A stretch of DNA of 64,000 nt from Stenotrophomonas sp. MMGLT7 (GTDB taxonomy: Bacteria > Pseudomonadota > Gammaproteobacteria > Xanthomonadales > Xanthomonadaceae), in the NCBI RefSeq assembly GCF_021168555.1, contig NZ_JAJOZS010000004.1:124001-188000 (forward strand), read 5' to 3'. The notes beneath the pieces are model-generated. The model did no database searches, was not told where the DNA came from, and was given only the letters and a program-made list of their open reading frames with translations. This document shows positions 12,690 to 44,978 of the stretch, piece after piece. Numbering within the stretch: position 1 is the stretch's first letter; each line of letters opens with the position of its first letter. A program made the translations under genes and the position numbers.

Positions 12690-12757
12690 GTAGGAGCGAC
12701 TTCAGTCGCGATGAGGCTTTACCGGCAGAGCCTCATCGCGACTGAAATCGCTCCTAC
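12690..12757. repeat. REP doublet, family A (GTAG type)
   Basis: Two head-to-head copies of GTAGGAGCGACTTCAGTCGC joined by a short linker with the ttaccgg core. Each monomer starts with GTAG and contains the mini-palindrome GCGACT-TC-AGTCGC; the pair forms a larger inverted repeat with one mismatch (actgaaatcg). The layout matches REP/BIME elements mobilised by RAYT transposases, such as the GTAG-type REPs of Stenotrophomonas. Located after the permease genes' 3' side. Confidence 0.85.
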
Positions 12758-21972: not shown

Positions 21973-22052
21973 GTAGGAGCGACTTCAGTCGCGATGGGCT
22001 TTACCGGTAAAAGCCCCATCGCGACTGAAGTCGCTCCTACAGTCGCTCCTAC
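21973..22052. repeat. REP doublet plus extra half unit, family A
   Basis: A perfect inverted pair of GTAGGAGCGACTTCAGTCGC around the linker atgggctttaccggtaaaagcccat (21973-22040). A second agtcgctcctac remnant follows (22041-22052), suggesting insertion next to or slippage of an older copy. It sits between metK and the VapBC pair. No gene in 21865-22241. Confidence 0.85.
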
Positions 22053-27670: not shown

Positions 27671-27738
27671 GTAGGAGCGACTTCAGTCGCGATGGGGATT
27701 TACCGGTACAGCCCCATCGCGACTGAAGTCGCTCCTAC
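27671..27738. repeat. REP doublet, family A
   Basis: An inverted pair of GTAGGAGCGACTTCAGTCGC units with the gatggggatttaccggtacagccccatc linker, followed by a degenerate cgttcctaca remnant. It lies between the receptor operon and panE, which diverge. Confidence 0.85.
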
Positions 27739-40684: not shown

Positions 40685-40695
40685 CGCCGGCCTGT

Positions 40696-40797
40696 GCCGA
40701 GGGGCGCTGCGACCAGGGCGCGAGTGATCGCCGATGTGCGGATCACCGCCGCCGACCTGGCCAGGCTCGTCACAGGCCACACGTCAACGGCGCCCGG
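40696..40797 (+). promoter_or_regulatory. S-adenosylhomocysteine (SAH) riboswitch
   Basis: Conserved aptamer parts are visible: gccgaggggcgctgcgacc (40695-40713), the ccaggctcg block (40761-40769) and caacggcgccc (40785-40795), whose gcgccc pairs with ggggcgc to form P1 and a pseudoknot. A variable hairpin (gtgatcgccgatgtgcggatcac) lies between. SAH riboswitches turn on ahcY when SAH, an inhibitor of methylation, accumulates. The aptamer ends 40 bases before the ahcY ATG. Confidence 0.85.
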
Positions 40798-40837
40798 CAA
40801 CGCGAGCACATCCCTCGCCATTGACCGGAGTACCACC

Positions 40838-42283
<1,446 letters not shown>

Positions 42284-42339: not shown

Positions 42340-42393
42340 TCTGGATTGCCGCGGATCCGGCGCGCAATGGCCGCCCACAAATCCCCTTCCCCC

Positions 42394-42460
42394 GTAGGAG
42401 CGACTTCAGTCGCGATGGGCTTTACCGGTAGAGCCCCATCGCGACTTAAGTCGCTCCTAC
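42394..42460. repeat. REP doublet, family A
   Basis: GTAGGAGCGACTTCAGTCGC in both orientations with the gatgggctttaccggtagagccccatc linker; one change in the right arm (cgacttaagtcg). It sits between convergent ahcY and queH. Confidence 0.87.
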
Positions 42461-42542
42461 CGGGTGCGCCTGCGGATGGACCACCTTCGAACCACTCGTG
42501 CGCCAGCGATCGGCACGCGCAACCGCGATCGCGGACCGGCCA

Positions 42543-43202
42543 TCAGGATTCCGCGTCCCCGTCCCCATAGAACTTCACCCCCAGGCGGATCCGCTCGCGG
42601 CCCTGCGCGCGCCGGTGCCGGTTGCTGTCGCGCAGCGAGTACACGCAGCCGCAGTACTCCTGCTGGTAGAAGTTCTCCCGCTTGCTGATCTCGATCATGC
42701 GCTGGCTGCCGCCGCCCTTGCGCCAGTTGTGGTCCCAGTAGACCAGGCCCTCGTAGGGCGCGGCGGCGCGATGCCCGCAATCGTTGATCTGCGCCATGTT
42801 CTTCCAGCGCGAGATCCCCAGCGAACTGGTCATCACCGTGAAGCCGTGCTCGTGGGCATGCAGCGCGGTGCGCTCGAAGCGCATGTCGAAGCACATGGTG
42901 CAGCGGATGCCGCGCTCGGGCTCGTCCTCCATGCCCCTGGCGCGGGCGAACCAGTTGTCGGTGTCGTAGTCGGCATCGACGAACGGGACCCTGTGCTTCT
43001 CGGCGAAGCGGATGTTCTCCTGCTTGCGCAGCTCGTACTCCTTCAACGGATGGATGTTCGGGTTGTAGAAGAAGATCGTGTAGTCGATGCCCGACGCCAC
43101 GAACGCCTCCATCAGCTCGCCCGAGCAGGGAGCGCAACACGAATGCAGCAGCAGGCGGCTGCCGCCGTCCGGCAGGGCCAGTTTCTCGCGTGTTGCGCTC
43201 AT
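42543..43202 (-). CDS. queH: Epoxyqueuosine reductase QueH
   Basis: 219 aa. This is the DUF208 family member that reduces epoxyqueuosine to queuosine in tRNA wobble positions, a non-orthologous replacement of QueG. The four-cysteine pattern is present: [12 protein letters not shown] near the N-terminus, RCTMCFDMR in the middle and [11 protein letters not shown] near the C-terminus, consistent with an iron-sulfur centre and zinc. Further conserved blocks are [17 protein letters not shown] and DWFARARG-like NWFARARG. It lies 27 bases after the MetE-like gene on the same strand and may be co-transcribed with it. Confidence 0.93.
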
Positions 43203-43229
43203 GCCCGCATCTCCGTCGCTATCGCCGGC

Positions 43230-44405
43230 TCAACCCCAGACTTCCCGCGCGACCTCGCCGATCAGGCGGATCTTCGCCCACTGCTGCTCCTCGGTGAGGG
43301 CGTTGCCTTCCTCGGTCGAGGCGAAGCCGCACTGGGTGCTCAGGCACAGCCGCTCCAGCGGCAGGTAGCGGCTCGCCTCGCGGATGCGGGCGACGACGGC
43401 CTCCCGGTCCTCCAGCTCGCCGACCTTGGACGACACCAGCCCCAGCACGACCTTCTTGTCGCCGGAGACCTGCGCCAGCGGCGAGAAATCGCCGGCACGG
43501 TCGGTATCGAATTCCAGGTAGTACGCCGAGACGTTCTCCCTGGCGAACAGGAACGGCGCGATCGGGTCGTAGCCGCCCTGCGCCGCCCAGGTGGAGCGGT
43601 AGTTGCCGCGGCACACGTGGGTGGTGATCGCCAGGTCGGCCGGCGCACCGGCCAGGGCGCGGTTGTTCACCTCCAGCAACTCGTTGGCGAGGGCCTCGAC
43701 ACTGTCGCTGATGACCGTGGCCGGGCCGTGCTCGCAGCAGCTGCCGTCGCTGTTGGCGGCGGCGATGCCGGCGTTGCTGTAGCGCGGGTCCACCATCATC
43801 CCCCAGGTGCAGTCGTCGAACTGCAGGCTGCGGCAACCGAGGGCGTACAGCTCGGCGATGAAGGTGCGGTAGGCCGCGGCGATGTCCTCGATCAGCGCCT
43901 CGCGCGAGGGATAGATCGCCTCGGTCGCCGCCAGGTTCTCCGGACGGTGCAGTTCCTTGAAGAACTGCGCCGGCGCCGGCACCGTCAGGCGCGGCAGCAC
44001 GCTGGCGTCGGCCAGCCCCTGGATGAACTGGAAGTGCGCGAGGAACGGATGGTCGGCGCCGCCCAGCTTGCCGGTCAGGCGTGCCGTCTCCGGGCGCGTT
44101 TCCATGTCGGCGAAGCGGTAGCCGTGTTCCAGCTGCGCCTTCTCCACGCCCTGCAGGCCCCACATGAAGTCCAGGTGCCACCAGCTGCGGCGGAACTCGC
44201 CATCGGTGATGGCCTGCAGCCCGGCCGCCTTCTGCCTGGCGACCAGGTCGGTGATGGCGCGGTCCTCCACCGCCTCCAGCGCGGCGGCATCGATCTCGCC
44301 GGCGGCGAAGCGGCGACGCGCGGCATGCAGGTAGTCGGGGCGCAGGTAGCTGCCGACGACGTCGGCGCGGAAGGGAGGGACGAGGCGGGTTGCGGGGGCG
44401 GTCAT
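43230..44405 (-). CDS. Cobalamin-independent methionine synthase-like (MetE C-terminal / YxjG-YxjH type)
   Basis: 391 aa, equal to the catalytic half of MetE only. Zinc and substrate features: FRADVVGSYLRPDYLHAARR, ITDGEFRRSWWHLDF, LQFDDCTWGMM, ITTHVCRGNYRSTW (His/Cys ligands), YYLEFDTDRAGDF and LCLSTQCGFAS (Cys ligand). The family transfers a methyl group to homocysteine, often from methyl donors other than long-chain folate. A cobalamin riboswitch precedes it (44520-44697), which fits a B12-independent enzyme shut off when B12 allows MetH to work. queH follows. Confidence 0.9.
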   Translation of the reverse strand: MTAPATRLVPPFRADVVGSYLRPDYLHAARRRFAAGEIDAAALEAVEDRAITDLVARQKAAGLQAITDGEFRRSWWHLDFMWGLQGVEKAQLEHGYRFADMETRPETARLTGKLGGADHPFLAHFQFIQGLADASVLPRLTVPAPAQFFKELHRPENLAATEAIYPSREALIEDIAAAYRTFIAELYALGCRSLQFDDCTWGMMVDPRYSNAGIAAANSDGSCCEHGPATVISDSVEALANELLEVNNRALAGAPADLAITTHVCRGNYRSTWAAQGGYDPIAPFLFARENVSAYYLEFDTDRAGDFSPLAQVSGDKKVVLGLVSSKVGELEDREAVVARIREASRYLPLERLCLSTQCGFASTEEGNALTEEQQWAKIRLIGEVAREVWG

Positions 44406-44519
44406 GGCGGGTCCTGGGTTGTCTGGACGGAAGTCGGACCGGCACGGCACAGCCGCGGTTGCGGCGGAGGCCACAACCTTGGACATGCACCCGGCCCGAA
44501 CACCCCGTCGGAAGGTCGA

Positions 44520-44697
44520 TGAACATCCAGGCAGGTCTCCTGGCTCGCAGGTCGACGCCACTGCGCCCTCTTCCCAGGGATCGACCCCAGTGAGCATTGG
44601 CGGGTGGCTCGCTGCTTACAGTTGCGGGGGCAGCACCGGCATCGACCGGTTTCCCTCTTAGCTGCGGCGGCACAAGCGAACCGCCGCAGAACCTTGA
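44520..44697 (-). promoter_or_regulatory. Cobalamin (AdoCbl) riboswitch
   Basis: Read on the minus strand, all hallmarks are present. TAAGAGGGAAACCGGT lies near 44660-44643, the core GCTGCCCCCGCAACTGTAA is at 44634-44616, CACTG and GGGAAG blocks follow, and the B12 box GCCAGGAGACCTGCC is at 44544-44530. About 115 bases separate it from the methyltransferase ATG and form the expression platform. It should repress the downstream gene when cobalamin is abundant. Confidence 0.93.
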
Positions 44698-44709
44698 TGT
44701 TGCGTGCTA

Positions 44710-44978
44710 GTGTAGTGCGTGCGGCCAGGGCGCGCACCGTGTCTGCCGCCGGCTGTCCGGTACGAGGTGCCGGCAGTCATGAGCCCCGTCCTTCCCCGGA
44801 TCGCCCGCCCGCGCCGGAGCGGCGACCGGCGTTTCCGCGACTGCGATGCGCCATCGTGGCGATGCCCCGCTCCCGTCGATCGCTTCTGCATCACTGTCGG
44901 CCGAGAACCGACGGTGGTAGTGGGTACCCATCGCTGGCGCGGCGTGCCGATGCCGCCGGACTTCCACGCAGACCCTTC
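44710..44978. other. Divergent spacer between the riboswitch transcript and DJ-1/PfpI gene
   Basis: No gene recognised. It should hold the promoters of both flanking genes; TACACT at 44714-44709 on the minus strand is a possible -10 box for the riboswitch transcript. Confidence 0.35.

Follow-up and report, generated by a model that had tools for sequence, protein, structure and literature searches.

QueH and QueG are said to be alternative epoxyqueuosine reductases (a view attributed to Zallot 2017). In the accessible parts of two papers, QueH is described as the cobalamin-independent counterpart of QueG (PMC11906303; PMC6461909). The accessible text of a third states that a cobalamin riboswitch, fused with a SAM riboswitch, commonly lies 5′ of metE in genomes having both metE and metH (PMC9600662). 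The locus described here lies in a window of 64,000 nucleotides, by which we mean the whole stretch of DNA that was analyzed. It resembles the riboswitch-led metE and other B12-independent isozymes, as far as that text portrays them, in its RNA family and its logic; it differs in that queH, whose product has QueG as its partner, is among the genes led, as is a valine-degradation operon in relatives. The QueH encoded in the window is likewise a predicted cobalamin-independent counterpart of QueG. Whereas the two enzymes are known as alternatives, the window genome has both together, with the B12-free one behind a cobalamin riboswitch. Within the accessible portions of the PubMed Central open subset, no publication came up in which a cobalamin riboswitch is assigned to queH or to this valine operon.

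The features collected in Table 1 very probably form a B12-shortage transcript, in which a riboswitch precedes the genes for two B12-free enzymes and QueH backs up QueG.

Table 1. Features of the locus in window coordinates
Feature	Position	Strand	Evidence
Cobalamin riboswitch aptamer (RF00174)	44513..44711	-	115.2 bits, model positions 1-189/189 with flanks
Leader, aptamer to start codon (putative expression platform)	44406..44512	-	Sequence; AGGA immediately 5′ of ATG
MetE-core methyltransferase, 391 aa, NCBIfam PRK06520 subfamily	43230..44405	-	ATG at 44405, stop ending 43230; profile matches
Junction, core-enzyme stop to queH ATG, 27 bases	43203..43229	-	Holds GGAG 5′ of queH ATG
queH, predicted cobalamin-independent epoxyqueuosine reductase, 219 aa	42543..43202	-	PF02677 218.7 bits vs 23.5

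A covariance scan of the whole window detected RF00174 at 115.1-115.2 bits (E 4e-28). The match exceeds the gathering score of 31.5 and spans the model from end to end, as the initial annotation had read when it described a complete B12 riboswitch. That annotation had placed the unit at 43230-44697; the former coordinate is indeed the end of the core-enzyme stop codon, but queH falls outside the interval and 44697 lies inside the aptamer. The leader folded no better than shuffled sequence (z -0.58), and the terminator scan, which is weak evidence, gave no match to an intrinsic terminator between the aptamer and the start codon, its terminator-like matches in 42350-44900 all falling within the queH coding region. 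The missing terminator and the unexceptional fold count against our reading of the locus.

The first gene behind the leader encodes, in agreement with the initial annotation, a methyltransferase of the MetE C-terminal type. It matched Pfam Meth_synt_2 (PF01717, the MetE catalytic domain) at 42.7 bits (cut-off 21) and, at 416.1 bits, belongs to NCBIfam PRK06520 (curated cut-off 313). The N-terminal MetE domain scored below its cut-off (PF08267, 12.9 bits against 27), and the 391-residue protein is not a full-length MetE (TIGR01371, 16.8 bits against 930). Among solved structures, 1ypx is the closest (E 8e-93). Alignment of the protein with the genome's own MetE shows every one of the zinc ligands (H, C, E and C) and homocysteine residues (S, E and D) listed in PMC7857596; a methionine synthase activity is likely. 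In being single-domain and MetE-like, with the same zinc and homocysteine residues, the protein resembles MesD/MesX and the other core methionine synthases presented in the accessible part of that paper (PMC7857596); unlike the MesD described there, it belongs to PRK06520 and not to the MesD model PRK09121. Two other identities were rejected: MesD itself, by a PRK09121 score of 38.3 bits (cut-off 392) and the lack of a MesX neighbor, and a truncated MetE, by the domain and family profile scores and the residue alignment with MetE. The gene is flanked by queH on one side and, past the riboswitch, by a divergent DJ-1/PfpI gene. Full-length matches to the core enzyme occurred in 2 of the 149 genomes of our family sample, and the exact order riboswitch-core enzyme-queH was found only in the window genome, the genus being represented by one genome. 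In two Burkholderiales loci (L121, 6856-8651; L102, 6841-8639), a core MetE-like gene stands directly 5′ of queH without a riboswitch, and in L121 a full metE lies ahead of both.

The gene that follows is queH, at the 27-base distance originally noted. Its product matched the solved QueH structures 7lc5, 7lc7 and 9deu (E 5e-28), and its cysteine motifs HSCCAPC, RCTMC and YCGC correspond to HVCCAPD, RCERC and YCGC of the solved QueH; the solved chain has Asp where the first motif of the window protein ends in Cys, and the motifs otherwise aligned. These conserved cysteine motifs presumably have a metal role.

The initial annotation had asked whether the genome also has queG. The window genome (assembly G000, 99.9% complete) does encode QueG (498 bits), together with the B12-dependent MetH and the adenosylcobalamin-dependent class II ribonucleotide reductase NrdJ (591 bits against 400). 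It contains four cobalamin riboswitches. Besides the one described above, a second leads a full-length metE (TIGR01371, 1095 bits), another leads nrdA-nrdB (PRK09209, 1468 bits; beta subunit, 496 bits), and the remaining one leads a gene for a TonB B12 receptor (btuB, 861 bits), followed by cobA, cobB and cbiB-like genes of corrinoid salvage. MetH/MetE, NrdJ/NrdAB and QueG/QueH are thus three pairs, in each of which the B12-free partner stands behind a cobalamin riboswitch. Since the other riboswitches lead metE, nrdAB and the btuB locus, the original idea fits a broader pattern of riboswitches on B12-free backups. B12 control of a B12-free methionine enzyme, as first proposed, also fits; if the core protein is such an enzyme, it would have full-length MetE beside it, which has its own riboswitch.

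We propose that adenosylcobalamin, or a related corrinoid, would bind the leader riboswitch and lower expression, and that under B12 scarcity the unbound riboswitch would let expression rise. One transcript would code for both the core MetE-type methyltransferase, probably a methionine-making enzyme, and QueH, which would perform the last queuosine step, otherwise carried out by the B12-dependent QueG. With B12 present, MetH and QueG would be in use; in its absence, MetE, the core enzyme and QueH would take over. That the riboswitch is instead of the activating kind, turning the unit on when B12 is present, seems to us extremely improbable: activating corrinoid riboswitches are reported in the accessible part of PMC10653944, and no terminator was found that would fix the sign, but every riboswitch-led unit of this genome serves B12 uptake and salvage or encodes a B12-free isozyme, the usual targets of repression.

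A B12-shortage role for queH gains support from relatives as well as from the presence of QueG. In the family sample, QueH was present in 13 genomes and QueG in 143 of 149, and a cobalamin riboswitch lay 5′ of queH on the same strand in 9 of the 13 QueH-positive genomes. It directly precedes queH, with no gene between, in G070, G097 and G123; it leads mmsA-acyl-CoA dehydrogenase-enoyl-CoA hydratase-hydrolase-mmsB-queH in G047 (where queH is split across two frames), G057, G084, G089 and G137; and it leads the core enzyme and queH in the window genome. In G016 and G091, a MetR-like gene precedes queH, MesX-MesD is divergent and no riboswitch lies 5′ of queH. The contig of G029 ends upstream of queH. 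In G017 (L031, 6345-9307), the riboswitch lies 3′ of queH, ahead of a TonB B12-receptor-like gene, and no QueG was found.

For a wider survey, 10 of the riboswitches found in this analysis were used to build a covariance model, R1, which was applied to queH loci of GTDB species; of 578 confirmed candidates, the best 80, a sample of those closest, were covered. A strong same-strand R1 match lay 5′ of queH in 23 of these best 80 of 578 loci, which answers in the affirmative the early suggestion to look for riboswitch-linked queH elsewhere. Still among the best 80, the match stood directly before queH in 12, all from Stenotrophomonas except a record titled [Pseudomonas] hibiscicola; riboswitch-metE-queH occurred in 5, and riboswitch-valine operon-queH in 6, from Dyella, Luteibacter, Luteimonas and Lysobacter. 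Rfam identified a cobalamin riboswitch in all three R1-linked loci examined (L054, L057 and L085). Five records are common to both samples (G016/L072, G091/L094, G070/L093, G097/L085 and G123/L081), two of which (G097/L085 and G123/L081) belong to the R1 training set, and three of the 12 direct riboswitch-queH loci are the same records as the three family genomes, leaving 29 distinct linked genomes (9 + 23 - 3). QueG was over its cut-off in all 29. It was likewise over the cut-off in the genomes of 63 of the best 80 of 578 loci: all 23 of the linked loci had it, as did 40 of the 57 unlinked ones (Fisher p 0.002), an association confounded by descent, the linked rows being of one order and 143 of 149 family genomes having QueG anyway. 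Two genomes of Xanthomonadaceae in which QueG is missing, those of G017 and L052 (Xanthomonas sp. GPE 39), have no riboswitch 5′ of queH.

These arrangements bear on whether the riboswitch might govern the core enzyme only, with queH served by a B12-blind promoter of its own inside the core gene. The 27-base gap without overlap leaves room for this, weak intragenic promoters being possible, and several queH genes of Burkholderiales and Xanthomonas follow a MetR-like regulator with no riboswitch. Against it, the promoter scan, weak evidence in itself, matched no sigma70-like site anywhere in 42350-44900; in Stenotrophomonas no other gene separates the riboswitch from queH; and elsewhere queH overlaps the preceding riboswitch-led gene. 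A separate promoter is therefore unlikely, and a shared transcript is the reading that we prefer. Where queH overlaps mmsB through ATGA (L032, L034, L039 and L055), coupling is plausible; across the gap in the window, control would have to act on transcription or through polarity.

Chance neighborhood of queH and the riboswitch was ruled out by the recurrence in four arrangements and by an outside control. Among 369 genomes sampled at the level of the class (Gammaproteobacteria), 58 have QueH, 56 of them outside the family. In these 56 queH loci, taken with up to 5.5 kb of upstream sequence and some shortened by contig ends, R1 found nothing better than E 0.98, and Rfam identified no cobalamin riboswitch in the 40 of these loci to which it was applied. 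Within these samples, the riboswitch-queH linkage is confined to Xanthomonadales.

QueA consumes SAM, and for this reason queH might travel with methionine synthases and MetR-like regulators, tied to methionine/SAM metabolism and not to B12. Many loci do have queH beside a MetR-like gene and MesX-MesD, and the core enzyme-queH (L102) and metE-core enzyme-queH (L121) arrangements lack a riboswitch. The valine operon, however, is not methionine metabolism and yet has the riboswitch and queH; riboswitch-queH units exist without any methionine gene; and the methionine genes involved are the B12-free ones (MetE and MesD). We regard a methionine/SAM link as very unlikely and retain the link to B12.

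MesX-MesD is a B12-free, folate-free methionine synthase pair, and it adjoins or lies near a queH that follows a MetR-like regulator in L030, L029, L064, L065, L067, L072, L078, L080, L086, L090, L094, L101, L106 and L118. In the accessible part of Leyn et al. (PMC4239095), PF08908-metE2 is placed in MetR regulons; PF08908 is MesX in Pfam, so that this fits the MetR-like gene found beside queH and MesX-MesD in Xanthomonas.

The valine operon itself was characterized in L039, where TIGR01722, TIGR01692 and the enoyl-CoA hydratase and 3-hydroxyisobutyryl-CoA hydrolase models of NCBIfam all scored over their cut-offs; the acyl-CoA dehydrogenase matched several NCBIfam models, all below cut-off. 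IcmF is a mutase that depends on B12 and has isobutyryl-CoA as its substrate. A search of 19 genomes with TIGR00641, a model picked for methylmalonyl-CoA mutase, gave matches in 11 and none in 8. Two of the 11 mutases were typed and are IcmF (1658 and 1677 bits against 1500), and the other nine are presumably IcmF, as their matches are split in the same pattern. A valine operon ending in queH stands behind the riboswitch in all 11 IcmF-type genomes (L032, L034, L038, L039, L040, L049, L051, L053, L054, L055 and L060) and in none of the 8 without a match (Fisher p 1.3e-5, descent ignored), the latter including three of one genus, two of another and a draft metagenome bin, L050. In these 8, mmsA is present and no riboswitch lies beside it in the stretches scanned. 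The valine operon also consumes isobutyryl-CoA, without B12. A B12-independent propionate shunt, a pathway of animals with the same reaction types, is a possible alternative role for the operon; disposal of isobutyryl-CoA fits better, since the riboswitch-associated mutase scored as IcmF in the two typed genomes.

Both Stenotrophomonas and the window genome lack IcmF; their valine operon is without a riboswitch, and queH has kept one. This is the outcome to expect if the riboswitch stays with whichever B12-dependent partner survives, here QueG. We consider it likely that Xanthomonadales cobalamin riboswitches mark the B12-free counterparts of those B12 enzymes that are kept, including QueH for QueG and the valine operon (mmsA-mmsB) for the fused IcmF, so that the valine operon goes without a riboswitch where IcmF was lost, while the window genome and Stenotrophomonas keep that of queH along with QueG. 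L050 breaks the rule: it has QueG and no IcmF match, and its queH is last in a valine operon without a riboswitch.

In a QueH tree with many weak forks, the window protein belongs to a group of 15 rows with support of 96/95, of which 9 are of the valine-operon type. Its grouping among valine-operon rows means that riboswitch-valine operon-queH may be the older arrangement. The Xanthomonas queH genes with MesX-MesD cluster with those of Burkholderiales, which suggests a separate acquisition. The queH of L071, a record titled Bacillus subtilis, sits among the Stenotrophomonas rows, and this assembly is probably contaminated.

The recurrence of the riboswitch-queH link in other arrangements among related bacteria makes it probable that a B12-free tRNA enzyme is swapped in at B12 shortage. 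If so, a vitamin sensor would be tied to the modification of a tRNA wobble base, the choice of queuosine-finishing enzyme would depend on the supply of B12, and decoding by Q-modified tRNAs would be protected during B12 scarcity. Cultivable bacteria, such as Stenotrophomonas with queH first behind the riboswitch, would offer a simple genetic system. The correlation of IcmF with the riboswitch-led valine operon provides a testable rule, by which the riboswitch shows which B12-independent gene replaces which B12 enzyme.

Several observations concern the surroundings of queH. In a Stenotrophomonas locus (L035, 7057-7683), a nicotinamidase gene (PRK11609, 182 bits) lies about 55 bases 3′ of queH and may share its riboswitch transcript. 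In two Nitrobacter loci (L083 and L099, 4700-11400), queH has a cobalamin riboswitch on either side, one facing away from it toward a ribonucleotide reductase and the other leading metE; no QueG was found in either genome. In the window, at 40693-42283 on the + strand, an SAH riboswitch (RF01057, 44.6 bits against 37) lies 5′ of ahcY and is convergent with queH, placing a second methionine-cycle riboswitch at a neighboring position. Finally, a palindromic repeat whose arms are about 28 bases apart occurs in four copies, at 12690-12757, 21973-22040, 27671-27738 and, just 3′ of queH, 42394-42460; its arms gave 8 matches against 0 expected.
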